From a virus, in IMG/VR virus record IMGVR_UViG_3300012929_000009, positions 1-45,185 of that record: a stretch of 45,185 bases of DNA. The stretch is one strand, 5' to 3'. Made by a program: the position numbers and the translations under genes. The notes below the pieces were generated by a model. That model saw nothing but the letters and a program-made list of their open reading frames with translations. It was not told where the DNA came from and searched no databases. Positions 3,603 through 45,185 of the stretch are shown piece by piece (within the stretch, counting starts at the first letter, position 1; every line of letters begins with the position of its first letter).

Positions 3603-4396
3603 ACGAGGTGGCTCCGGATGTCAAAAACCTGGGCAGGCGGCGGCGCGTCGGAAAAACCTTCGAAGCGCCGCTGCGAAAGAAATCGGCAGGCATGAACCGT
3701 TTCGAGATTTGGTTTTGTTTTGAGAAACCGCCTGTAGGGCTCGATGGCCTGGCAGGCTTTAAGCTGATCGTCCGGAGAGAGCTTCGCCCACGTCTTCCAG
3801 GTTTCAAGCTTCGCCATGTTTGGCGTACGGGGATAGGGAATCCAAAAATCTCTTTCGAACTCTTCCGAATATTCGTTTTTGGTCCGCGTCGTTTTTACGA
3901 CCGGACAATATATTTCTTTCTTCTCTTCTCTAGTCTCTTCTTCTCTAGTCTCTTGGTGTTGGTTATCTAACAGTGCTACTGTTGGCTGATGATTAGTTTT
4001 CAAATGGTTAGCTTCGATATCGCACTGCGATATACCATCAACCACGGATTCATCACGCCGCGACCCCTTAGCGACCCCGGCCGAACCCCTACCCCCTTTG
4101 GCAGAGGTTACCCGGTGGTTGGCGACAGATTGAAGCTCGGTTGCGGCGCGATCGTTCGATAGGCGCCCGTCGATCAAGACCAGTTTTTTGAGTTCCATCA
4201 GCGTGCGCAGATTGCGCCGGAAGGCGAGGATATGTTGCTTGCATCGGCCAGCGATTCCGATCTCGTTTAGAGCGATCGGTCCCTCGTTCAGATAGATCAG
4301 TTGGCAGATGATGTGATAAGCTCGATACGGCCCATCATCGAGACCCTCGGTGCCGTCCATCCAAGCCGGAATGTCATGTTTGTACCAAGAGACCAT
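3599..4396 (-). CDS. DUF1376 replication initiator-like protein
   Basis: A 265-residue protein whose first 85 residues match the DUF1376 (YdaU-type) winged-helix domain: WYKHDIPAWMDG at the start, YRAYHIICQLIY, then GRCKQHILAFRRNLRTLMEL. Such proteins are thought to bind the phage origin and help load the helicase. The middle is low-complexity and carries an in-frame 15-bp tandem repeat; the C-terminal 90 residues (FWIPYPRTPNMAKLETWKTW) resemble the tail of phage initiator proteins. It overlaps the helicase gene by four bases and the nuclease by one (TAATG). The phage origin may lie in this gene, but no iteron array was seen. Confidence 0.8.
   Translation of the reverse strand: MVSWYKHDIPAWMDGTEGLDDGPYRAYHIICQLIYLNEGPIALNEIGIAGRCKQHILAFRRNLRTLMELKKLVLIDGRLSNDRAATELQSVANHRVTSAKGGRGSAGVAKGSRRDESVVDGISQCDIEANHLKTNHQPTVALLDNQHQETREEETREEKKEIYCPVVKTTRTKNEYSEEFERDFWIPYPRTPNMAKLETWKTWAKLSPDDQLKACQAIEPYRRFLKTKPNLETVHACRFLSQRRFEGFSDAPPPAQVFDIRSHLV
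3926..3955. repeat. 15-bp in-frame tandem repeat
   Basis: TTCTCTAGTCTCTTC occurs twice head to tail (3926-3940 and 3941-3955, one mismatch). It lies in the linker of the DUF1376 gene and encodes two ETREE units, so it could expand or contract without a frameshift. Confidence 0.7.
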
Positions 4397-4794
4397 TACT
4401 CAGCAGCCTCTACGTGCTGCAAAATGCCTCTCATCGTCACTGACGGCCGGATAATGCCCCACGCTTCCAACGTCGCTAATGCCGCATCCACACCCGTGGC
4501 AAGGGCTGTGAAGGCCCCTGCCCGATCAGCTTCGGATAGGAAGGCCATCTGCTCTTCCGTCGCCCTGCCTCCCTGCGCTTTGAGCTCAAGGGCGAATGTC
4601 TTGTTCTGGTGCAGGAGGATCAGGTCCGACACACCGGGACGGACACCCATCGCTTTCAGGATTCCGGCCTCGGCTTTTGTTCGATAGCCGCCGTTCGGAA
4701 CGTGGAAAAACACAAGGCCTGGCATCCCTCGAGCTTGAAGATGCTGCACGATCGTGCATTGGAGGGCGGTTTCTGGGTTCCTCTTGCGGCTCAT
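4396..4794 (-). CDS. VRR-NUC domain nuclease
   Basis: A 132-residue nuclease of the VRR-NUC group, a PD-(D/E)xK fold related to Holliday-junction resolvases. Visible core residues are E8 in NPETALQ, D57 in RPGVSDLIL and E70-x-K72 in FALELKAQGG. It could resolve branched replication or recombination intermediates before packaging. An open frame extends further upstream, but the ATG at 4794 is preferred because it overlaps the methyltransferase stop as ATGA and gives a standard-length domain. Confidence 0.85.
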   Translation of the reverse strand: MSRKRNPETALQCTIVQHLQARGMPGLVFFHVPNGGYRTKAEAGILKAMGVRPGVSDLILLHQNKTFALELKAQGGRATEEQMAFLSEADRAGAFTALATGVDAALATLEAWGIIRPSVTMRGILQHVEAAE

Positions 4795-5315
4795 GGCCCA
4801 TACGCCAGCGTCGGCGCTCCCTGATGCCGATGATCCCAAATAAACCAAGCATGATTGAAGGAGGGTGAACCCTTGGAGTCCTCGAACCATTGAATGCGCT
4901 TCGTCAGCACAAGTTTCTTAGCGAACGTTTGGCTTTTGAAGAGGCGGGCTCGCGTCTTGGCGTGATCGAAGTCGGTACGAAGAAGCATCATCACCTGACC
5001 CTTTTGGGGTTCTGTAAGCATGAGGGCGTGATCAATGAAGTCGGTGGCTATTTCGTAAGGCGGATTGGTGATGATCGTGTCGGCAGCCGTCATGGTGAAA
5101 GAAAGGAAGTCCTCGCCGGTCTCGTGAATATCGGTCCCGCGGATTTCTGCGTCGAGCATTTCGAGCATGCGGAGCATCTTGCCGCTGCCGCAAGCTGGTT
5201 CCCAGACCACATCGGGTTTGCGGAATCCCTCTGCCAGAAGCGCTGCCGTCACCCACTCAGGTGTTTCGTAGAGATCACGTTCTTTACGTTCGTATCCGGA
5301 ATCGCGCTGGCTCAT
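4791..5315 (-). CDS. DNA adenine methyltransferase-like protein
   Basis: A 174-residue S-adenosylmethionine-dependent methyltransferase. Motif I is EPACGSG (residues 39-45) and motif IV is NPPYE (84-88), the pattern of N6-adenine or N4-cytosine DNA methyltransferases. It is short, without an obvious separate target-recognition domain, like many phage orphan methyltransferases. It probably modifies phage DNA against host restriction or marks replication. It is coupled by ATGA overlaps on both sides. Confidence 0.85.
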   Translation of the reverse strand: MSQRDSGYERKERDLYETPEWVTAALLAEGFRKPDVVWEPACGSGKMLRMLEMLDAEIRGTDIHETGEDFLSFTMTAADTIITNPPYEIATDFIDHALMLTEPQKGQVMMLLRTDFDHAKTRARLFKSQTFAKKLVLTKRIQWFEDSKGSPSFNHAWFIWDHRHQGAPTLAYGP

Positions 5316-5755
5316 GCCGCCATCCTTGCTTGCACGATGAACAGCGGCACATCCGCGATCTCGGCGACGATCTCTTCGAGCCGATCCATGAAGTCGTGAG
5401 GACAGAAGCCGCGCTCGCTAAGCTCGAACCACGAAAGCCCTTGGTGCCCAAAGCTGACCAGGAGCTCGGGGATGTGGAGCTCGGCCGGCGCCCAATCCTG
5501 CAGTAATGCGGGATCACCCTTTTCCGAGGGAAAAGAGCTGCACTCTCCGGCCGAGCTTTCTGATGAGCTCGCCCTCTCTCGGTCGTTGGACCTGTCAGGG
5601 CCGCTTATTAGGCTGCCATCCCCTGAGAGCTGCTCGTCAGAACCCAGAATAAGTTGGCCGTCACCATGGAGGGGGTGAGACACAGCGACGACCTCCGCAG
5701 CGTCAGAGCAACTTGCTGCCGCGGGATCTATGAATGGGTTTGGAAGCTCTGCCAT
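5312..5755 (-). CDS. Hypothetical protein, 147 aa
   Basis: No family recognised. The first 85 residues are low-complexity and acidic or serine-rich; the last 50 (LSWFELSERGFCPHDFMDRL) look folded. The start ATG at 5755 directly follows the preceding stop, and the stop overlaps the methyltransferase start as ATGA. The unequal halves suggest a disordered linker joined to a small domain. Confidence 0.7.
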   Translation of the reverse strand: MAELPNPFIDPAAASCSDAAEVVAVSHPLHGDGQLILGSDEQLSGDGSLISGPDRSNDRERASSSESSAGECSSFPSEKGDPALLQDWAPAELHIPELLVSFGHQGLSWFELSERGFCPHDFMDRLEEIVAEIADVPLFIVQARMAA

Positions 5756-13636: not shown

Positions 13637-13980
13637 TCGGCGACAGCGATACCATAACCCTGAAGGATGCTGCCCAGCATTTCGGGTTTACCGTCTGGAC
13701 GCTTCGTGCGGAGGCTGATCGCGGTCGCCTGACGATTTACAAGATCGGCAAGCGGTTCTACACCACTCCGGCAGACATCAAGGAAATGATCCAGCTATGC
13801 CGCGTCGATCAAAAGGGCCGCGACTTTACCTTGATCCTAAACGCAAGCAGTACGTTATCCGAGACGGTGCGCGCTTCGTCCGCACTGGTTGCAGCGAACG
13901 AGACCGCGCTCAGGCTGAAAAATTCCTCGCGCAGTATATTGGGCAAAAGCATCGCCCTACCCCGTCGAGCTCGCCCATGA
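13633..13980 (+). CDS. xis: Excisionase-like MerR/Xis HTH protein
   Basis: A 115-residue protein. Residues 6-60 are a winged helix-turn-helix of the excisionase type (TLKDAAQHFGFTVWTLRAEA, DRGRLTIYKIGKRFYTTPAD, IKEMIQLCR). The C-terminal part (SETVRASSALVAANETALRL) matches what I recall of this family, even though 184 bases of the gene overlap the integrase in another frame. It should direct Int towards excision. The long overlap ties Xis and Int synthesis together. Confidence 0.8.
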   Translation: MIGDSDTITLKDAAQHFGFTVWTLRAEADRGRLTIYKIGKRFYTTPADIKEMIQLCRVDQKGRDFTLILNASSTLSETVRASSALVAANETALRLKNSSRSILGKSIALPRRARP

Positions 13981-14804
13981 TCGCCGAAGTTCTAGCCGCC
14001 TATGGAAATGAGGTCGCGCCGGAAAAGCCGAGCGCGCGCAATATCGGCTATCACATTTCGAACCTGCTCAAGTGGTGGGGAGATAAGCGCGTTGCTGATA
14101 TCGGAACCAAGAGCTGTAAGGCCTACGTCAAGACCAAGACGGAACCGGCGGCGACCGCGGACCTTAAGGTTTTGAAAGCCTCTGTCAAATACTGGCATGA
14201 TGAATATGGGCCGCTTGACGCGATGCCCATATTCTGGCGGCCGGTGGGGAATGAGCCGAAAGAGCGATGGCTGACGCGATCGGAGGCTGCGCGCCTGCTA
14301 TGGGCCGCCCGGCGCTATCAGCACATGCGGCGCATGATCCTGCTGGGACTTTACACAGGTTCGCGGCCAGGCGTCCTGCTTAGCCTGCAATGGAGCCAAG
14401 TCGATCTCGATACGGGCGTGCTGACGCGCCTCAAGGCTGGCGCGCGCAAGGACAAGAAGAAACGCGCCCCCAAGGTCAAGTTAGGCTCACGGATTCACAC
14501 GCACCTGCGACGCTGGAAGCGCCTCGACGGGGACCAGAAGATCGTCTGCCACTTCAAGGATCCTTGGCATCCCGAGGCCCGGCAGGTCGAGGACCCCCAT
14601 GGGGCATGGAAGAAGATCATCGAGGCGTCCGGCTTGTATGGCGTCACGCGCCACACGCTGCGCCACACCCGCGCGACATGGATGGCGCAGGCTGGCGTGC
14701 CTCTGTGGGAGGCCGCTGGCTTCCTCGGAATGACGACAAAGACGCTGGAAGGCATCTATGCCCACCACTGTCCGGACTTCCAGGGGCGGGCTGCTAATAT
14801 CTGA
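13797..14804 (+). CDS. int: Tyrosine site-specific integrase
   Basis: A 335-residue tyrosine recombinase. The catalytic domain shows arginine I in YTGSRPGVLL (about residue 192), a lysine-rich beta-hairpin (ARKDKKKRAPKVKLG), HTLRHTRATWM with the H-x-x-R pair (about 285-290), and the nucleophile tyrosine in LEGIYAHHCPDF (about 320). The N-terminal SAM-like domain spans about residues 60-120. It integrates the phage into the host chromosome and, with Xis, excises it, so the phage is temperate. It starts inside xis. The attP site is expected nearby but was not identified. Confidence 0.93.
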   Translation: MPRRSKGPRLYLDPKRKQYVIRDGARFVRTGCSERDRAQAEKFLAQYIGQKHRPTPSSSPMIAEVLAAYGNEVAPEKPSARNIGYHISNLLKWWGDKRVADIGTKSCKAYVKTKTEPAATADLKVLKASVKYWHDEYGPLDAMPIFWRPVGNEPKERWLTRSEAARLLWAARRYQHMRRMILLGLYTGSRPGVLLSLQWSQVDLDTGVLTRLKAGARKDKKKRAPKVKLGSRIHTHLRRWKRLDGDQKIVCHFKDPWHPEARQVEDPHGAWKKIIEASGLYGVTRHTLRHTRATWMAQAGVPLWEAAGFLGMTTKTLEGIYAHHCPDFQGRAANI

Positions 14805-37322: not shown

Positions 37323-38288
37323 TTACGAGCTCGTGAGATCGAAGACGCCAGCGGAGGCCTTTTCATTGCGCGCTTCCAAAGCGTACTGGCTCAGTACCGT
37401 CCTCGCATCCGAATCGCCGGTCTTGGCGAGATTGAACGAGAGGAAGTTGCGGCCCGGCAATGGGGCATAGGCCCATTTTGCCATTTCCAGCACGAGGACA
37501 TCCCGGGTCCGCATGAATAGGTCCGGGACAGCCTTCAACTGGCCGAAGTCCGACACGTAGACATCGACAGCCGCGGTGATCTTCTTGTCTTCCTGGTCCT
37601 GGAACGGAGTGCCGCGACCAGTGAACATCGAGAACGCCTGCTTGTTGAAGGAGCCCATCAGGATCGTGGTGGGACGGCCTCCGGTATCATAGGCCTTCTT
37701 CAATGCGATCTTGAGATCGTTCTCAACGAACGACCGCTGCGTTGCCGAGTCCACCCGGAGAGACGTTCCATCTGCCGCAGTCGGATCGGCACCAGTGCCG
37801 CCGCCCTTGACGGTGTTGGTCTTGATCCATGACAGTACGTCCGCGGTTTTCGGAGCCGTGGACGAATTGCCCGTGACCTTGGCCTGATTGGCGCCGGTCA
37901 GAATGGCCTCCAGATCGCGCCGAAGCTCCATGCCCTTGAGCATGACCTGGTAGTCCATCTCATTTCCACGGCCGGCATGCTCAACTGCCTGTTGGGTACC
38001 AGTGACACGCGGTGTCTTGCGCGAAATCTGGCAGATATTGCCAAGACGAACCGTCGCCGTGGCGGCATCCGCAGCATAGCTGTCATCACCTTCAAGCTGG
38101 GCATTTGAAGTCGAAGCGGCAGCCAACGCTTGGGTCTGCCATTCGTGGTTGGTAGCAGCAGCCTTGCTCTTTTCGATGCCGGAAAAGAACGGGGTCTCGG
38201 TTGGGTCAATCCGATAGATGCGGTTCGACAAGTCTTCCCGGTTGCCAATAGCCGAGAAGGTCGTGAAAGCAGAAGTTGCGAGAGTCAT
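37323..38288 (-). CDS. Major capsid protein (DUF5309/SU10-type)
   Basis: A 321-residue protein of the DUF5309/SU10 capsid group, an HK97-fold shell protein. The N-terminal arm reads REDLSNRIYRIDPTETPFFS; internal motifs are GNICQISRKTPRVTGTQQAV, ELRRDLEAILTGANQAK and ILMGSFNKQAFSMFTGRGTP; the end has VLVLEMAKWAYAPLPGRNFL. It lies after the scaffold gene and before a strong terminator, consistent with high expression. Confidence 0.88.
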   Translation of the reverse strand: MTLATSAFTTFSAIGNREDLSNRIYRIDPTETPFFSGIEKSKAAATNHEWQTQALAAASTSNAQLEGDDSYAADAATATVRLGNICQISRKTPRVTGTQQAVEHAGRGNEMDYQVMLKGMELRRDLEAILTGANQAKVTGNSSTAPKTADVLSWIKTNTVKGGGTGADPTAADGTSLRVDSATQRSFVENDLKIALKKAYDTGGRPTTILMGSFNKQAFSMFTGRGTPFQDQEDKKITAAVDVYVSDFGQLKAVPDLFMRTRDVLVLEMAKWAYAPLPGRNFLSFNLAKTGDSDARTVLSQYALEARNEKASAGVFDLTSS

Positions 38289-38299
38289 TGTAGACCTTT

Positions 38300-39376
38300 C
38301 TAGCGACTGGCAGCTTTTCTCTCAAGCTGAAGGATCTGGGCGCTGAGGCGCGCAGCTTTGTCACCGGTCGCAGTGTTAAGTTGACGTTCGAGGGTTTGGA
38401 TCTGGGCCGCTACGCTTGACGTTGCAGGCTTGGCGGTTCCTGGTCGCTGAACTGGCGGGAGATTGGGCTTGGCAGCAGCCTTGGGAGCATTTTCGATGTC
38501 CCGAAGTTTCACGGAATCGGCGAGGAGCCGCTGCACACGATGGTCATAAATGGCGAGCTTTTGCTTGCCATTCGCCAGTGCAGTGAGTTCGCTGTCCGTA
38601 AAGCCGAGTTCTGGAAGTAGTTCCTTCGCTACCCGGGTCATCAGTTTTTCGGACTTGTCCTTATCCGCAAGCTCAGGGATCAATTCAGCCGCGCGAGTAT
38701 TTTCCTTCTGGACATAGGTTGCCCATTCGGATTGCTCGGTGGCCTGTCTTTCCTGCGCGATGCGGTCCGTTTCCTGTTTCGTGGCCTGCAACTGCATCTG
38801 ATGCACCTGCCATGCCTGAAACCGGAACGGGTCTTCCGCCTGCAGCTTTGCGACATCCTGCATAGTCTTGATGTCGGCAAAACTCGCCTGGTGAGCGCTC
38901 TCCAAGGTCTGGAGAAGCTGGGGAAGCTGGGCTTCGTATTGCTGCTTTGCCTTCTCCGCTTCTGCTCGCGCGGCTTCAGCAGCCTTGCGAATGTCAGCGG
39001 CCTCGTTTTGGCTACGGCGGATTGCGGAATCTCGTTCCTGTTCGCGCTTCGCAATTCTCTCTTGCGCCTCGCGAGGGTAGGAAGCCCACTCCTCGTCCAA
39101 CTCCTTCGCCCAAGACCTCGGTCGCTCGATTGGCGGAATTGCTTCCGGTTCGGCTTCCTTGGTTTCGCCGGGGTCCGTTTCCAGGTCGGCGTTGCCCTCG
39201 ACAGGCAATTCAGGTTCTGCGGTCGCGGATTCCGCGCTCTCGGCAGGCGGCTTCTCACCGCTCACTAATTTCTGTCTGTCCTCGGTCAAAGACCGGACAG
39301 CATCATCAAACGATAAAGTCGCGGGTGCATCAGACGCGAGCGGAATGCTCGGCGCATCGGCCAGTTCGGGGTCCAT
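38300..39376 (-). CDS. Capsid scaffolding protein
   Basis: A 358-residue, charged protein upstream of the capsid gene. An acidic N-terminus (residues 1-85) leads to a long Glu/Lys/Ala/Gln-rich helix (REAQERIAKREQERDSAIRR, AEAARAEAEKAKQQYEAQLP) and a basic C-terminus (EKIN-like coiled coil ending in ILQLERKAASR). This is the usual architecture of scaffolds, with the basic C-terminus binding the coat protein and the protein released before DNA filling. No protease domain was seen. Confidence 0.82.
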   Translation of the reverse strand: MDPELADAPSIPLASDAPATLSFDDAVRSLTEDRQKLVSGEKPPAESAESATAEPELPVEGNADLETDPGETKEAEPEAIPPIERPRSWAKELDEEWASYPREAQERIAKREQERDSAIRRSQNEAADIRKAAEAARAEAEKAKQQYEAQLPQLLQTLESAHQASFADIKTMQDVAKLQAEDPFRFQAWQVHQMQLQATKQETDRIAQERQATEQSEWATYVQKENTRAAELIPELADKDKSEKLMTRVAKELLPELGFTDSELTALANGKQKLAIYDHRVQRLLADSVKLRDIENAPKAAAKPNLPPVQRPGTAKPATSSVAAQIQTLERQLNTATGDKAARLSAQILQLERKAASR

Positions 39377-39385
39377 GGATGTCCT

Positions 39386-39649
39386 TTAGGTTTTCAATCG
39401 GTCGAGTTCAGCCTGGGCAAGCTTGCCGTTGCTGACGAACATTTGCAGCGCGTCACGATGTTTTCTGTTCGCATGGATCATGCGCCAGCACATCTCACGG
39501 CCATCCTGATCCCTTGGCTCAGATGCGATCCAAGCGGAGACCAGATTAGCCTCAATCCCCTCATATGCCATAATGAGGGTTTCATCATTGAGTAGCTGCT
39601 GGGCTTTTGCAGCCAGGTTCGTAGCGTCAAGCAGCCGATCGTCGCTCAC
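39386..39649 (-). CDS. Conserved head-module protein (87 aa)
   Basis: An 87-residue helical protein (LLDATNLAAKAQQLLNDETL, then MCWRMIHANRKHRDALQMFV). I recognise the pattern as an unnamed protein between portal and scaffold genes in related phages. It overlaps the end of the glycosyltransferase-like gene by 23 bases, suggesting that gene was inserted just upstream of it. Confidence 0.7.
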   Translation of the reverse strand: MSDDRLLDATNLAAKAQQLLNDETLIMAYEGIEANLVSAWIASEPRDQDGREMCWRMIHANRKHRDALQMFVSNGKLAQAELDRLKT

Positions 39650-40958
39650 TCAGCATGTCCTTCAGTTGATCCCTAACCTGCCTGATGCAGGGCTTCCAGT
39701 CGCCCTGCTTTTTCTGCCGGATGACCCGCATGGAATCGTACCAGACCGTCTTTTGGCTGTTTCGATTCCAGCGCCAATCGCACGCATTCGTCGCCAGCAT
39801 AAAAACAGGCTTGCCAAGAGCTCCTGCGAGATGAGCTACCGCGGTATCGACGCTGACAATGACATCCAAAGCCTGGATCAGTCTCGCTGTGTTTCGCCAT
39901 GTCGTGGCGAGGGGCTCGAGATTGGCGACAAAGCCGTCGTAGCCAAGATTTGTGGTCTCAAGTCCTGGATGGCCTGCTTGGAGCGAATAGAAAGCGGCTC
40001 CAGGTAGGTCAAACAAGGGGCAGAACTCAGTGAAAGCAATGGAGCGATGAACGTCCATCCCGTAGGCTGGATTGCCTCTCCAGACGAGCCCAACATTTAG
40101 CTTTCCTCTCAGCGGTATTTTCGCTGGCTCGGCTTTGAAGTACGGCCTGCCCGAGGCCTTAGCCAAGTCAATACCGACACGCCAAGGTACAGACATGCTG
40201 CCAATAACAACATCGCAATCGAAAGGACCGGAGAGCGGGACAATACCGTCAAAATCAATATTATCGGCAACAAGGTCAAGAAGATCGGGAACGGGTCCGC
40301 ATAGAAGGACCTTAGCCGCGCCCATCTCTCGTAAACGAGGAATGTAGCGGCAAAACTGGATAAAATCTCCCGAACCTTCCTCATGGTAAACTACCACGGT
40401 CTTGTCGGTAAGGTCTTCACCTTGCCAGTGAACAACATCAGGCGGCAGCTTGGCCTGCGAGATCAGGTGGCCCCCACTCTCATGCAGCTTCCAAACTGCC
40501 GCCTCTCTCCTGACTTCAAAAGCCTGTAACCCTGACATCAGGTCTCCGCTCGCCAGGATAGCCAAAGCACGATCCTTCAAGGTATTCGGATTTGGCTCGA
40601 TATCGTAGGATTTCTGATACCATTCCGCGGCTTTGTGGTTTTCACCCACAGCCCGATAGGCAACGCCTAAATGATGATAGACTTTGGCTCGCCAGTCATC
40701 TGGCGTGATTTTGAGACAACGATGATATATTTCCAGCGCCTTTTCGAACTCGCCGGCCCTGTGAAGACCTGAACCATAATTGAAAACAGGGCTGATATCA
40801 TTCGGAGCCAACTCAAAAGCCCGTTTGGCGAGCGGCAGATAAAGAGCCGCGTTTTCCTTCTTCTCAGAGATCAGCGAGAACTGATCGACAAGGGCAACAG
40901 CATCATCAGGATTACGGATCAGCTTATTACAGGTCGCGCGGTACTTCTCGACGTTCAC
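39627..40958 (-). CDS. TPR-repeat glycosyltransferase-like protein
   Basis: A 443-residue protein. Residues about 30-145 contain TPR-like helices (FNYGSGLHRAGEFEKALEIY, VYHHLGVAYRAVGENHKAAE, WYQKSYDIEPNPNT). Residues about 185-430 resemble a GT-B-type (family 9/41-like) glycosyltransferase: VVVYHEEGSGDFIQFCRYIP, NVGLVWRGNPAYGMDVHRSI and VSVDTAVAHLAGALGKPVFM. TPR-linked transferases commonly glycosylate proteins. Its place between portal and scaffold genes, next to an FkbM methyltransferase, suggests a virion protein or host surface as target; this is inference. Confidence 0.8.
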   Translation of the reverse strand: MNVEKYRATCNKLIRNPDDAVALVDQFSLISEKKENAALYLPLAKRAFELAPNDISPVFNYGSGLHRAGEFEKALEIYHRCLKITPDDWRAKVYHHLGVAYRAVGENHKAAEWYQKSYDIEPNPNTLKDRALAILASGDLMSGLQAFEVRREAAVWKLHESGGHLISQAKLPPDVVHWQGEDLTDKTVVVYHEEGSGDFIQFCRYIPRLREMGAAKVLLCGPVPDLLDLVADNIDFDGIVPLSGPFDCDVVIGSMSVPWRVGIDLAKASGRPYFKAEPAKIPLRGKLNVGLVWRGNPAYGMDVHRSIAFTEFCPLFDLPGAAFYSLQAGHPGLETTNLGYDGFVANLEPLATTWRNTARLIQALDVIVSVDTAVAHLAGALGKPVFMLATNACDWRWNRNSQKTVWYDSMRVIRQKKQGDWKPCIRQVRDQLKDMLSERRSAA

Positions 40959-40980
40959 TGATTTTTCCTCTTGGAAAATA

Positions 40981-41769
40981 TCAAGCCGCTTCCTTCACAA
41001 CACCGACATTCTCAAGCGTTTTGTCACTTTCGTGGATTGCCAGGATATTCATGCCGTTCGGGAGCACCCGATAACCCTCATTCCGCAATGCGGCAATGAT
41101 AGTGTCCTTGTCCGACTTGATCGTTTCCACGAACAGGATGGGCTTGCAGCGCGCGATCGTCTCAGCCGCACCTTGGAGGACCTCCGCCTCCATTCCCTCG
41201 ACGTCGATCTTGAGCAAATCCAACCGTTCCAGCTTCAGGCTGTCGATCGTAATCTGCTTTACCGTCGAAGTCGGCTTTGCGTAATCCACCGCTTGACCAA
41301 TGAACGCAGTTCCCATCCGAGCGCGAAGCTCGAAAGAGCCAAAACTCCCTTGAGCACGATAATCAGGCTCGGGGAAAGATAGCTCTCCACATTCCTCTCC
41401 CAGAGCCGCCCAGATGGCCCGTGCATTGAAGCAATTCTGAAGGGTCAGATTTCCCGCAAGGGCATAGAATATCCGCTCCTGAGCTTCGACAGCGAGGACA
41501 GAACCCCAATCCCGCATATGCCGGGACCATTCGATGGTGTGAACCCCGATATTGGCCCCAGCATCCAAAGCCACAACACCATCCCCAAAATGATTGCGCC
41601 GGCAAAGCAAAAGGTTCTTCAGATCATCCACATCACGAGGATCATAAGCACCGTTTTCCATGATCTGAGCGCCGACACCGTAGAAATCCCCGGTGAAGGT
41701 GTGATTGTAGTCCATACGGTTGACGAGAATTGGGCCGTGATCGGAGGAAACCAGGCAGAAAGCTATCAC
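40981..41769 (-). CDS. FkbM-family methyltransferase
   Basis: A 262-residue SAM-dependent methyltransferase. The binding loop is ALDAGANIGVHTIEWSRHM (about 68-86), followed by VLAVEAQERIFYALAGNL and the family-typical LDLLKIDVEGMEAEVLQGA and PILFVETI. FkbM enzymes often O-methylate sugars. ATGA overlap with the portal gene couples it to head-protein synthesis, and it precedes the glycosyltransferase-like gene by 22 bases; the two probably act on the same glycan. Confidence 0.88.
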   Translation of the reverse strand: MIAFCLVSSDHGPILVNRMDYNHTFTGDFYGVGAQIMENGAYDPRDVDDLKNLLLCRRNHFGDGVVALDAGANIGVHTIEWSRHMRDWGSVLAVEAQERIFYALAGNLTLQNCFNARAIWAALGEECGELSFPEPDYRAQGSFGSFELRARMGTAFIGQAVDYAKPTSTVKQITIDSLKLERLDLLKIDVEGMEAEVLQGAAETIARCKPILFVETIKSDKDTIIAALRNEGYRVLPNGMNILAIHESDKTLENVGVVKEAA

Positions 41770-43436
41770 TTGCCACCATTCGGAGCGCTCTGCATCTGCT
41801 CCATCTTGGTATCGTGCGCGTGTGCAGTTGCAGCAATGCCTACGACCTTCCCGGCCATGTCCGCGTGGTGCTTCTGCTGATCGTGCCGCATTTTCTGCTC
41901 GGCCTGGATCGCCTCGATATGCGCGTTGATCACAGCTAATTTGGCATCCAGTTCAGCCTTGACCTTCGCAACCTCGATATCCGCCTGCGCCTTGACCTGC
42001 TGATGGATAATATCAGCTTGACTCTTCGCCTGATCGCCTTGAGCTTTCTGCTGGGCGATCTGAAGCTGACCCTGTGTCTTGACCTGTTCAGGACTTGGTT
42101 GAGGTTGAGGAGGCGGATGCAGCAATTGTCCAGTTTGAGGGTCTTTGGCTTGCGGATCATTGAAGAACTTGTCCGCGTTCTTGTGGCCAAGAATCTTGCA
42201 CAGCTCAGTAGCTGTATTCCATAAGTTGGTGTCATCAACCAAGTTGGGCTTGCCCCCCGCCAGGATTTTCTCCTGAACCTGAGCGACCGCCATCATTCCT
42301 GCGAACTGCTGGGCTTTCCCGCCTGATCCAAGCCCGACATTGATAGTCATATCATCGCGGGTTTTCCAGTTCCTTGGATCAACGGGAATCCAGGTATTGC
42401 GGAGCCTGACTGTTTGCTCTTCCTGCCCATGCGATCGAATGGTGTGATGCAGCAATGAGAAGATATCCCGCACGCCTTCCGCTATGATGCGAGCGATTAG
42501 CTTCATCCGCATCTGAGAGGCCGAGAAAACTTGAGCGACTGCGGTAGCAGATTGGTTCTGCAGGGCGTTCGCGTCTAGTCCCTGAGATTGCTTGCTGACA
42601 CCCGTTCGTTGCTCGAGCTCGGCATCGATATACTGCATCATGGGATAGATTGAGGTAGTGATATCGGGAACAACCTGCCAGTTGAGACCTCCAGCAGTTT
42701 TAGTTCTAACAACCCCGCCTGGTCTTGAGACCAGCAAATCGTCCAGCGTGTTGGGTCCCGCATTTGCTTCGGAAACTTCAACCCTGGGATTGTTGTGAAG
42801 GTAAAGATTGTCAAGTGCGCCTCGCTTTAACGCCGTCTTCTCCCTCTGCAAAGGCATGACCAGATCGGCGATCGACCGGCCGAAGAACCTATGCGTGATC
42901 GGAACCGGAGTCGTTGCGGCGAACGGAATGACATCGATCGGCTCGATGACCTCTTTGCCGTCCTTCCTGAGGATTTCGCCCTGATCTCCTCCCGTCACCA
43001 CCATGTACAAACAGGGCTTGCCTTTGCCCTCATAGTCCATTCGGACATAATGCTCGGTGATCTTCGGAATCTGGGCAGATTCGTTCATCTCCCCAGCGTT
43101 GAAATGCTCCTGAACACTATCCCTTGAGATCGTTTCCGGGTCTTGATTGCCCATATACGGCGTGAGCGACCGAATTTGCTCCGCATCAAAGCCCTCAGTG
43201 ATCAAATCTGAAACGGTCTTGGTGACAACCTCGTGAAAGCAGTAATTGCAGGTTTTGACATCACGAGCAGCGCGTTCAATACCAAATTCCTCGGGAGGAA
43301 CCCCGAGAACGCGAGCGCGGGCAAGCTTCTTGGTAGTGACGATCGTTATATCGTGGGTTCGTAATGCCTTATTTTGCGCCATGGGATTTCCCAGGACGGA
43401 CTGACCTCCAGCGGGAGGCGCATAAGGAGCGTTCAC
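41766..43436 (-). CDS. Portal protein, C-terminal piece (556 aa)
   Basis: The major part of a P22/SU10-type portal. The first residues are a linker; LARARVLGVPPEEFGIERAA and the following sequence match the middle of one-piece portals I know. RFFGRSIADLVMPLQREKTA and RTGVSKQSQGLDANALQNQS are portal-core motifs (wing and stem/crown region). The last 150 residues form a Gln/Lys/Ala-rich coiled coil (barrel-like extension). It starts at GTG 43436, which overlaps the stop of the 28-codon ORF. The N-terminal portal domain is encoded separately at 43516-44076. Confidence 0.85.
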   Translation of the reverse strand: MNAPYAPPAGGQSVLGNPMAQNKALRTHDITIVTTKKLARARVLGVPPEEFGIERAARDVKTCNYCFHEVVTKTVSDLITEGFDAEQIRSLTPYMGNQDPETISRDSVQEHFNAGEMNESAQIPKITEHYVRMDYEGKGKPCLYMVVTGGDQGEILRKDGKEVIEPIDVIPFAATTPVPITHRFFGRSIADLVMPLQREKTALKRGALDNLYLHNNPRVEVSEANAGPNTLDDLLVSRPGGVVRTKTAGGLNWQVVPDITTSIYPMMQYIDAELEQRTGVSKQSQGLDANALQNQSATAVAQVFSASQMRMKLIARIIAEGVRDIFSLLHHTIRSHGQEEQTVRLRNTWIPVDPRNWKTRDDMTINVGLGSGGKAQQFAGMMAVAQVQEKILAGGKPNLVDDTNLWNTATELCKILGHKNADKFFNDPQAKDPQTGQLLHPPPQPQPSPEQVKTQGQLQIAQQKAQGDQAKSQADIIHQQVKAQADIEVAKVKAELDAKLAVINAHIEAIQAEQKMRHDQQKHHADMAGKVVGIAATAHAHDTKMEQMQSAPNGGK

Positions 43437-43519
43437 CTATAGTAAACCGAGGCGAAGACGATGCACAGCCCACTCATGATCATAAGATATCCAATCAGCA
43501 CATATTGAAGGCCACTCAC
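43433..43519 (-). CDS. 28-aa membrane ORF bridging the split portal
   Basis: GTG 43519 overlaps the stop of the portal N-terminal gene (GTGA) and this ORF's TGA overlaps the GTG start of the C-terminal portal gene (again GTGA). The product is one hydrophobic helix (VLIGYLMIMSGLCIVFASVY), unlike any portal segment. Each overlap shifts the frame by -1. It may be a real peptide or a bridge that allows re-initiation. Confidence 0.6.
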   Translation of the reverse strand: MSGLQYVLIGYLMIMSGLCIVFASVYYR

Positions 43520-44076
43520 GATACAGCCTCACTCGCCGGCTCATTAATCGAATGTTCGACGATCTTCATCTGCCCGTCAGATTGCATGACCTCATGAGAC
43601 AGCACCATGAACTGGTCCTCCGAGAGACCGTAATAGGTCTCTCGCTCCTCGCGCTCTTCTTCTTCCCACCAGACCTTCACAAACCCAACCTTCTGAAGCA
43701 GCGCATCCTTGATGAAGGAATACAGCACCATAAAACCCGGATTCTGCTGCATGAACACATGGTTCACATAATCGGTTTCCTGCTGCGCCGCAGGTTCATC
43801 CTCAGGACCCACAGGCTCGAATCTGACAACTTCGTCAGATCCAGCAAAGATATCCATCAGGCTCGGCATCAGCCCTTCAACAGCGTCCTGAACGTCCGTG
43901 GAGACTGCTCTGGAGCGCCCCTCCTGAGCCGGCATATCCCGGGACATATTGCCGAGATAATAGTCCATGGCCGTCTGACGCTCGGTGGATAGCTCCGCTG
44001 CATTCATGGCCGATAGCGCATCGGCCTTTTGTGCCGCCAGCATGGGCTGGAGCGCAGTAAGTTCCATCTTAGGCAT
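43516..44076 (-). CDS. Portal protein, N-terminal piece (186 aa)
   Basis: A 186-residue protein matching the first quarter of SU10/P22-type portals: MDYYLGNMSRDMPAQEGRSR, STDVQDAVEGLMPSLMDIFA, GSDEVVRFEPVGPEDEPAAQ, QETDYVNHVFMQQNPGFMVL and FIKDALLQKVGFVKVWWEEE. In one-piece relatives this runs on directly after the VEH-type strand into the VPPEEF region, which here is in another gene. Start ATG 44076 overlaps the previous stop as TAATG. Confidence 0.85.
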   Translation of the reverse strand: MPKMELTALQPMLAAQKADALSAMNAAELSTERQTAMDYYLGNMSRDMPAQEGRSRAVSTDVQDAVEGLMPSLMDIFAGSDEVVRFEPVGPEDEPAAQQETDYVNHVFMQQNPGFMVLYSFIKDALLQKVGFVKVWWEEEEREERETYYGLSEDQFMVLSHEVMQSDGQMKIVEHSINEPASEAVS

Positions 44077-44186
44077 TAAGAAATGCCCGTCCTTAGCCGC
44101 GCATTGCGTCGCTCAAGAAATAGCATCACAACGAAGCGGTATTCTCGCTTCGATAGCCAGAGTACCAATCGCCACGGTATCATCAT
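44076..44186 (-). CDS. 36-aa basic hydrophobic ORF between terL and portal
   Basis: ATG 44186 overlaps the terL stop as ATGA and the TAA overlaps the portal start as TAATG. The product has a hydrophobic/aromatic start (IPWRLVLWLSKREYRFVVML) and many arginines, amphipathic rather than a clean membrane helix. Translation is supported only by the overlaps. Confidence 0.5.
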   Translation of the reverse strand: MMIPWRLVLWLSKREYRFVVMLFLERRNARLRTGIS

Positions 44187-45185
44187 GCGTAACCCTGATT
44201 GGCATATTCGATCTTGCGCCCGAAGCCCGTATTGATGATCTGATTATCCAAGGTCATAGCCAAATATCTGAACGCATCTGCAGCATGACTTGTCCAATCG
44301 TGCAGCGGCTTTGTTTTGATCACTTGGCGCTTATCATCATATTCAGCCCGATAAAGCGTCAAAGCTTCAATGCCGCGGGCACATTTGTTTTTGTCGAACC
44401 AACAGCGAGGCAGCAACATCACGACGTTGCTGATTCCATCTTCAACACGGTGATCAGGCGCGCGCTCAACAACCTCTGACTTGATTCCAAGCGGTTCAAT
44501 AAACTCGATAGTCGTCTTTCCCGTTTGCTTTTGTGTCGCCCAAGCATCATGCGGAAAAATATGCTTTGCATAGTTATATGGCTTATTCAGCACCGCTTTC
44601 ACATCAACCGCAATATCTGAGCCAATGCATTCATAGTAGTCGATCACGTGGATTTCACGGCCGATAACCTGAACGAACCAAATGGCGGTGGCGTCCCGGT
44701 ATCCTAGATCCCATGCCGTATAGACTCGTGCTGCAGGATCATAGGGAACCCCCGCAATACGGTCTCCCTGCTGTGAGAGAGATGCCATCTGCTTACCGTA
44801 GTAAGCACCGATAATTGCCGCCTCGAATGAGCATTCAAATTCCTGAGCGTATTGCTCATCGGTGAGAGCAGTCCTGAGGCTTTCCAATTCTGCGGTCGGA
44901 ATAATACCTGTTTCCGATGCCTTGAGCGTTCGACGAAACCAGCCTTCCGCTAAAGTTCCATCTTCCATTCGATCTATTTTATAGAACCAATCTCGTCCTG
45001 CGGGAGTTCCGATAAAGGTCCCCCAACCCACATAATCAGATAGCGTGGGGCGAATGACCTCGGGCCAAGCTCGAGGGTCCATTTGCGCAGGCTCGTCAAT
45101 GGTGACCCCATCATGGTAAAGCCCCCGGAGTCGGTCGTAATTGTCAGCACCGTACAAACGTATCCGGGCTCCGTTTGGATATTCA
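44183..45185 (-). CDS. terL: Terminase large subunit, C-terminal part (gene begins at 419)
   Basis: This holds codons 99-433 when the terminal repeat is counted (codon 140 onward is unique here). After the Walker B motif DGVTIDE comes WGTFIGTPAGRDW (coupling motif) and the RNase H-like nuclease: YTAWDLGYRDATAIWF with D258 and SHAADAFRYL with D402 as probable metal ligands. The full protein has 432 residues, normal for podovirus-type large terminases. It ends in an ATGA overlap with a tiny ORF before the portal gene. Confidence 0.92.
   Translation of the reverse strand, partial: EYPNGARIRLYGADNYDRLRGLYHDGVTIDEPAQMDPRAWPEVIRPTLSDYVGWGTFIGTPAGRDWFYKIDRMEDGTLAEGWFRRTLKASETGIIPTAELESLRTALTDEQYAQEFECSFEAAIIGAYYGKQMASLSQQGDRIAGVPYDPAARVYTAWDLGYRDATAIWFVQVIGREIHVIDYYECIGSDIAVDVKAVLNKPYNYAKHIFPHDAWATQKQTGKTTIEFIEPLGIKSEVVERAPDHRVEDGISNVVMLLPRCWFDKNKCARGIEALTLYRAEYDDKRQVIKTKPLHDWTSHAADAFRYLAMTLDNQIINTGFGRKIEYANQGYA
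45063..45185. repeat. Terminal direct repeat, right copy
   Basis: Identical to 1-123; see the left copy. Removing one copy closes the terL frame and the circle. Confidence 0.95.

Follow-up and report, generated by a model that had tools for sequence, protein, structure and literature searches.

The window, i.e. the whole stretch of viral DNA analysed here (45,185 nucleotides), carries on its minus strand, in this order, a large terminase gene, portal-N, a 28-codon ORF, portal-C, two unrelated genes, the scaffold gene and the major capsid gene (Table 1). The portal forms the ring by which DNA passes into and out of the virus head, and packaging, head assembly and DNA ejection all depend on it. 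Portal-N corresponds to the N-terminal part of an SU10-type portal and ends with the first strand of a hairpin, while portal-C corresponds to the remainder, from the second hairpin strand onward. In a Pfam search the two jointly covered positions 4-592 of the SU10_portal model (PF23899) with a break at 164-168, and because the two matches are collinear and complementary, portal-N and portal-C together represent one complete portal. The portal of the SU10 type is a single polypeptide; here it is encoded by two ORFs in different frames, an arrangement conserved in relatives. The GTG start of portal-C aligns with the TTG starts of the relatives L006-L008 and L073. The layout of the two halves and the ORF between them, with its two GTGA overlaps, agreed to the base with that given in an earlier note on this DNA.

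The halves occupy the position expected of an SU10-type portal gene, between the large terminase and the scaffold and major capsid genes, with two extra genes separating portal-C from the scaffold gene. These two (39627-41769) are an FkbM-type methyltransferase gene and a TPR/glycosyltransferase-like gene, and the head region is an odd site for sugar-modification genes. An integrase gene is present at 13797-14804 and suggests that the window phage is temperate.

Table 1. Features of the split-portal locus and neighbouring head genes in the window
Feature	Coordinates	Strand	Remarks
Portal-N, 186 aa, ATG start	43516..44076 (44076..43516)	minus	PF23899 model positions 4-164, E 1.6e-56
28-codon hydrophobic ORF, GTG start, VSGLQYVLIGYLMIMSGLCIVFASVYYR	43433..43519	minus	Slot insert between the halves
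Portal-C, 556 aa, GTG start	41766..43436	minus	PF23899 model positions 168-592, E 3.6e-129
GTGA stop-start overlap, portal-N / 28-codon ORF	43516..43519	minus
GTGA stop-start overlap, 28-codon ORF / portal-C	43433..43436	minus
GAGG, Shine-Dalgarno-like, in the portal-N tail SEAVS	43527..43530	minus	7 nt ahead of the GTG of the 28-codon ORF
Terminase large subunit, upstream neighbour	44183..45184	minus	PHROG 2 and others; truncated by the window end
Head scaffold, downstream head gene	38300-39376	minus	phrog_3927
Major capsid protein, downstream head gene	37323-38288	minus	PF17236, 1.9e-85

Split and one-piece portals among relatives

Relatives were collected from IMG/VR, bacterial genomes and phage records. 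In the redundant set of 320 loci the halves were separate ORFs in 204 and one ORF in 93, and one half was absent in 23. Removal of near-duplicates left 170 non-redundant portal rows, window included: 119 share the same split site and 51 are one-piece. Because so many relatives are cut there, the split is not due to chance. In L314 the reading frame changes within the N half, which is conserved, and this row probably reflects an indel or frameshift artefact; with it excluded and the window included, the same break is found in 118 of the 170 portals, which bears out the view of the earlier note that the split is natural. The split-portal relatives number more than 100, mostly from Bradyrhizobium and soil, and all of them keep portal-N. 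Each half found a match in 45 of the 266 genomes searched in the genus Bradyrhizobium; 30 genomes carry both halves separately on the same contig, with gaps from some 26 nt to some 8 kb (coordinates read by eye), while G230 and G024 carry a fairly close one-piece portal. Many of the loci are metagenomic contigs or prophages that may or may not be active.

One split locus belongs to a published phage, Bradyrhizobium phage ppBeUSDA76-2, also written ppUSDA76Be-2 (OP596614; L002). Its portal-N (184 aa) and portal-C (553 aa) meet at a TGATG junction and are 74% and 67% identical, respectively, to those of the window; unlike the window, it has no bridging ORF. The 553-aa ORF of the C half, at 4013-5674 of OP596614, is without a CDS in the GenBank record, and the word "portal" is absent from the main text of the paper (PMC10127595). 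B. elkanii USDA 76 spontaneously releases a podophage with short-tailed particles, and DNA from phage particles was mapped to the ppUSDA76Be-2 prophage (mBio 2023, PMC10127595). As read from its genome record, the split arrangement is carried by a virion-producing phage.

In the trees, most split rows form one large clade and further split rows lie among one-piece relatives. Placing all split rows in one clade was rejected (p-AU 7e-8), therefore the split or one-piece state changed more than once. A topology holding the main split rows together received p 0.79, and one with scattered splits plus the whole main clade was not rejected (p 0.15); several independent splits are possible. Within the split clade, the Bradyrhizobium genome G230 encodes the portal in a single 727-aa frame that is 93% identical to the split L111, and its loop HTVLGAGDLPENPAPPISPASPITHDVTI resembles an N tail fused to a C leader. 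This case, from one assembly, is best read as a recent re-fusion.

Nine Bradyrhizobium genomes (G066 (L333), G241, G127, G182, G251, G225 (L332), G205 (L336), G244 (L335) and G001) hold additional partial copies of portal-C or portal-N beside or inside the gap between the halves, for example C residues 316-515 downstream in L333, C 27-83 within the gap in L332 and N 59-184 in L336. These copies are perhaps remnants of recombination, or signs of exchange by it. In four Bradyrhizobium genomes (L328, L329, L330 and L331) portal-N is reduced to its first ~130 residues; in L328, L329 and L331 it ends at KDALLS and gives way to a common stretch (70-73% identical) in which an acetyltransferase-like frame can be read.

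Selection on the halves and the site of the break

Median dN/dS was computed from pairs with dS of 0.1-1.2 only. Across the split rows it was 0.106 for portal-N and 0.174 for portal-C, and across those whose halves are over 700 nt apart it was 0.073 and 0.145. Both halves are under purifying selection, also when more than 700 nt of cargo lies between them. The N and C distances are correlated to the same degree whether the rows are split or one-piece (r 0.84 in both). These values bear on the idea that the portal consists of portal-C alone and that portal-N now serves some other purpose, as separately encoded chains could diverge in role. We regard this as highly improbable, given that the portal core is retained in portal-N, which is the better conserved of the two halves, that the N/C correlation does not differ between split and one-piece portals, and that the re-fusion in G230 returns the N part to the same chain.

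The one-piece relative L065 was modelled from a 47-row alignment (mean pLDDT 77.5, pTM 0.68), and the position of the break in the fold was read from this structure model, which matches the solved portals of Pa223, SU10 and PaP3 (9nwm, 7z44 and 7sxk) by Foldseek and likewise by sequence; the portal fold was found on this one-piece relative only. In the model, strands at 170-179 and 186-206 form a beta-hairpin and the break falls in the turn between them. The corresponding loop in one-piece portals is 5-75 residues long (median 21, 40 rows) and often proline-rich, and this variation in length means that the break site tolerates insertion in one-piece portals too. The break lies at a tolerant turn, the hairpin tip ahead of VPPEEF, in keeping with the linker position proposed earlier from the window. 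Modelled alone, the window portal-N gave a poor result (pLDDT 57), which would fit an obligate partner and equally a shallow alignment. The one-piece portals of L211 and L227 contain repeat-like peptide stretches in the hairpin loop (PSFETG, RPPQDEG), which perhaps stem from in-frame insertion of small palindromic DNA elements.

Junctions, inserts and cargo between the halves

In the non-redundant set the halves are separated by a stop-start overlap, a mini-gene or other genes of up to 7 kb. The junctions were tallied for 118 split rows, here all except the window and with L314 included. At 54 of them the start codon overlaps the portal-N stop, mostly as TGATG and in some as TTGA or GTGA, the smallest gaps being a 1-4 base overlap; gaps of 1-60 nt were found at 2, 61-300 nt at 13, 301-1000 nt at 13 and more than 1 kb at 32, and at 4 the portal-C start was not assigned. 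Portal-N of the coupled rows often ends in EATS or EAAY, a stretch that contains a Shine-Dalgarno-like motif. Such a motif precedes the coupled starts in 38 of 53 cases versus ~13% of random control windows; it is less clear at long-insert loci (11/60), which retain an in-frame start and the conserved portal-C leader.

The earlier note had offered re-initiation or two successive -1 shifts as ways of making the portal. The former is kept, as initiation of portal-C by translational coupling seems likely from these junctions, and the latter is dropped. Programmed frameshifting, by two -1 shifts or one net +1, would yield a single chain; both overlaps in the window are in -1 phase and the short-gap relatives nearly all share one N-to-C phase (51/55), the latter being what TGATG and TTGA overlaps lead one to expect. 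With gaps above 120 nt, however, all three phases occur (24/20/18) and no fixed frame links the halves, the gaps extend to kilobases and contain stops in every frame, and relatives keep the portal-C start codons and conserved leader, all of which makes frameshifting very improbable. Decay of a prophage gene, or an indel from sequencing or assembly, is a very improbable explanation as well. The family does seem to include genuine examples, L314 and genome G064, but the same split recurs in independently sequenced isolates, in metagenomes and in a phage assembled from virion DNA, and strong purifying selection acts on both halves. The exclusion of a simple indel, argued earlier from the window, therefore holds.

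The 28-codon ORF of the window is a different matter. Homologues of its peptide were sought with Pfam and PHROGs, by tblastn against the loci and by scanning viral contigs for a degenerate DNA pattern, and as nothing convincing was found, it is uncertain whether the ORF is protein-coding. Portal-C of the window starts with VNAPYAP, and L073 has LNAPYAP straight after portal-N at a TTGA junction; because this leader adjoins portal-N with no ORF between, the 28-codon ORF is read as an insert, and it looks like 83 bases flanked by two GTGA copies. The GAGG (43530-43527) that precedes it in the window is the motif that directly precedes portal-C in coupled relatives. The same site is occupied in other relatives by one or two mini-genes (40-153 codons), many of which overlap at both ends; one of them, in L005, is hydrophobic. 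The mini-genes of L015, L141 and L163 differ otherwise, yet have a common PGGIDD motif at the end. The earlier note had taken the membrane ORF for a bridge between the halves, but close relatives do without it (TTGA or TGATG junctions) and others have unrelated mini-genes or long cargo there, so that it is not a needed one; the one-piece portals that the note had proposed to look for were found among relatives, and a homologue of the bridge ORF was not.

The longer cargo was represented by 97 ORFs of at least 95 aa, picked mechanically, so that some are surely not genes. Few had Pfam matches (three M23 peptidases, one Ivy-like inhibitor and one HNH protein), to which a PHROGs search added endolysin and transglycosylase matches, and several have signal-peptide-like or membrane segments by inspection. 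A group of 42 linked, largely proline-rich ORFs recurs between the halves in 26 loci (e.g. L049:2518-3750); some members have an M23 peptidase domain, and they often adjoin portal-C. PADLOC matches in the cargo were to one member each, and the single HNH protein may account for them. A homing endonuclease as the general cause was rejected, the HNH protein of L027 being the only one among the 97 ORFs and none occurring in the window; a search for intron RNA matched no Rfam family in ten sources, window included. A self-splicing intron or intein that leaves a one-chain product, superficially resembled by the 1-7 kb inserts in an essential gene and by the HNH endonuclease in L027, is hardly credible against this lack of Rfam matches, the single HNH protein, gaps that shrink to a 1-4 base overlap, many loci without any insert and a portal-C with its own start.

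A probable portal of two chains

The portal ring of this lineage is very probably built from two separately translated chains joined at the hairpin, with the gap between their genes serving as an accessory-gene slot. In the mechanism that we propose, the portal gene would have been cut into two genes at the beta-hairpin loop, and portal-N and portal-C would be made as separate chains, in many relatives by stop-start coupling with the portal-C ribosome-binding site lying within the last portal-N codons. The two chains would come together via the hairpin strands, which would pair, and via the remainder of the fold, forming a ring of ordinary shape, presumably of 12 + 12 chains. The gap would act as a slot in the head operon that tolerates DNA, and its occupant in the window would be a very small insert, the hydrophobic ORF that overlaps both sides.

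A two-chain ring, as suggested earlier, remains the best reading in that the split is conserved and both halves are selected; the ring itself, the pairing of the chains in it, their stoichiometry, the translational coupling, any function of the 28-aa peptide and the reason for keeping the cut are points that we infer from sequence. A more specific picture, in which a temperate podophage lineage has two-chain portal subunits, keeps the cut as a swap slot for small membrane, secreted or cell-wall-active genes and occasionally re-fuses the halves, stands in our estimate at even odds.

The portals of the SU10/PaP3/Pa223 type (PF23899; PDB 7z44, 7sxk, 9nwm) resemble that of the window in sequence family over both halves, in the gene order terminase - portal - scaffold - capsid and, through the one-piece relative, in fold; they differ in being single chains, whereas the chain of the window lineage is cut at the hairpin loop. 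The closest precedents are the split enzyme genes of T4-type phages, namely Aeh1 nrdA, gene 43A/43B and the T4 topoisomerase genes 60/39, in which two genes with DNA intervening encode one protein and the two gene products are reported to form the active enzyme jointly (PMC2988022). Those proteins are enzymes and their splits are mostly explained by homing endonuclease insertion (PMC2988022), whereas the split portal is a structural ring protein, extends over a whole lineage and has hardly any endonuclease in the gap. In the open-access literature searched, judged mostly by title and abstract, we found no report of an earlier split or two-chain portal.

For annotation, the split accounts for a large ORF that the record of a published phage (OP596614) leaves unannotated, and half of the portal may be missed in other members of the lineage. 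The solved and annotated relatives compared are single chains, and the split lineage adds one-piece and re-fused counterparts with which ring assembly can be compared. The split portal marks which loop can be cut, and shows that a virion gene can be an insertion site even though it is essential.
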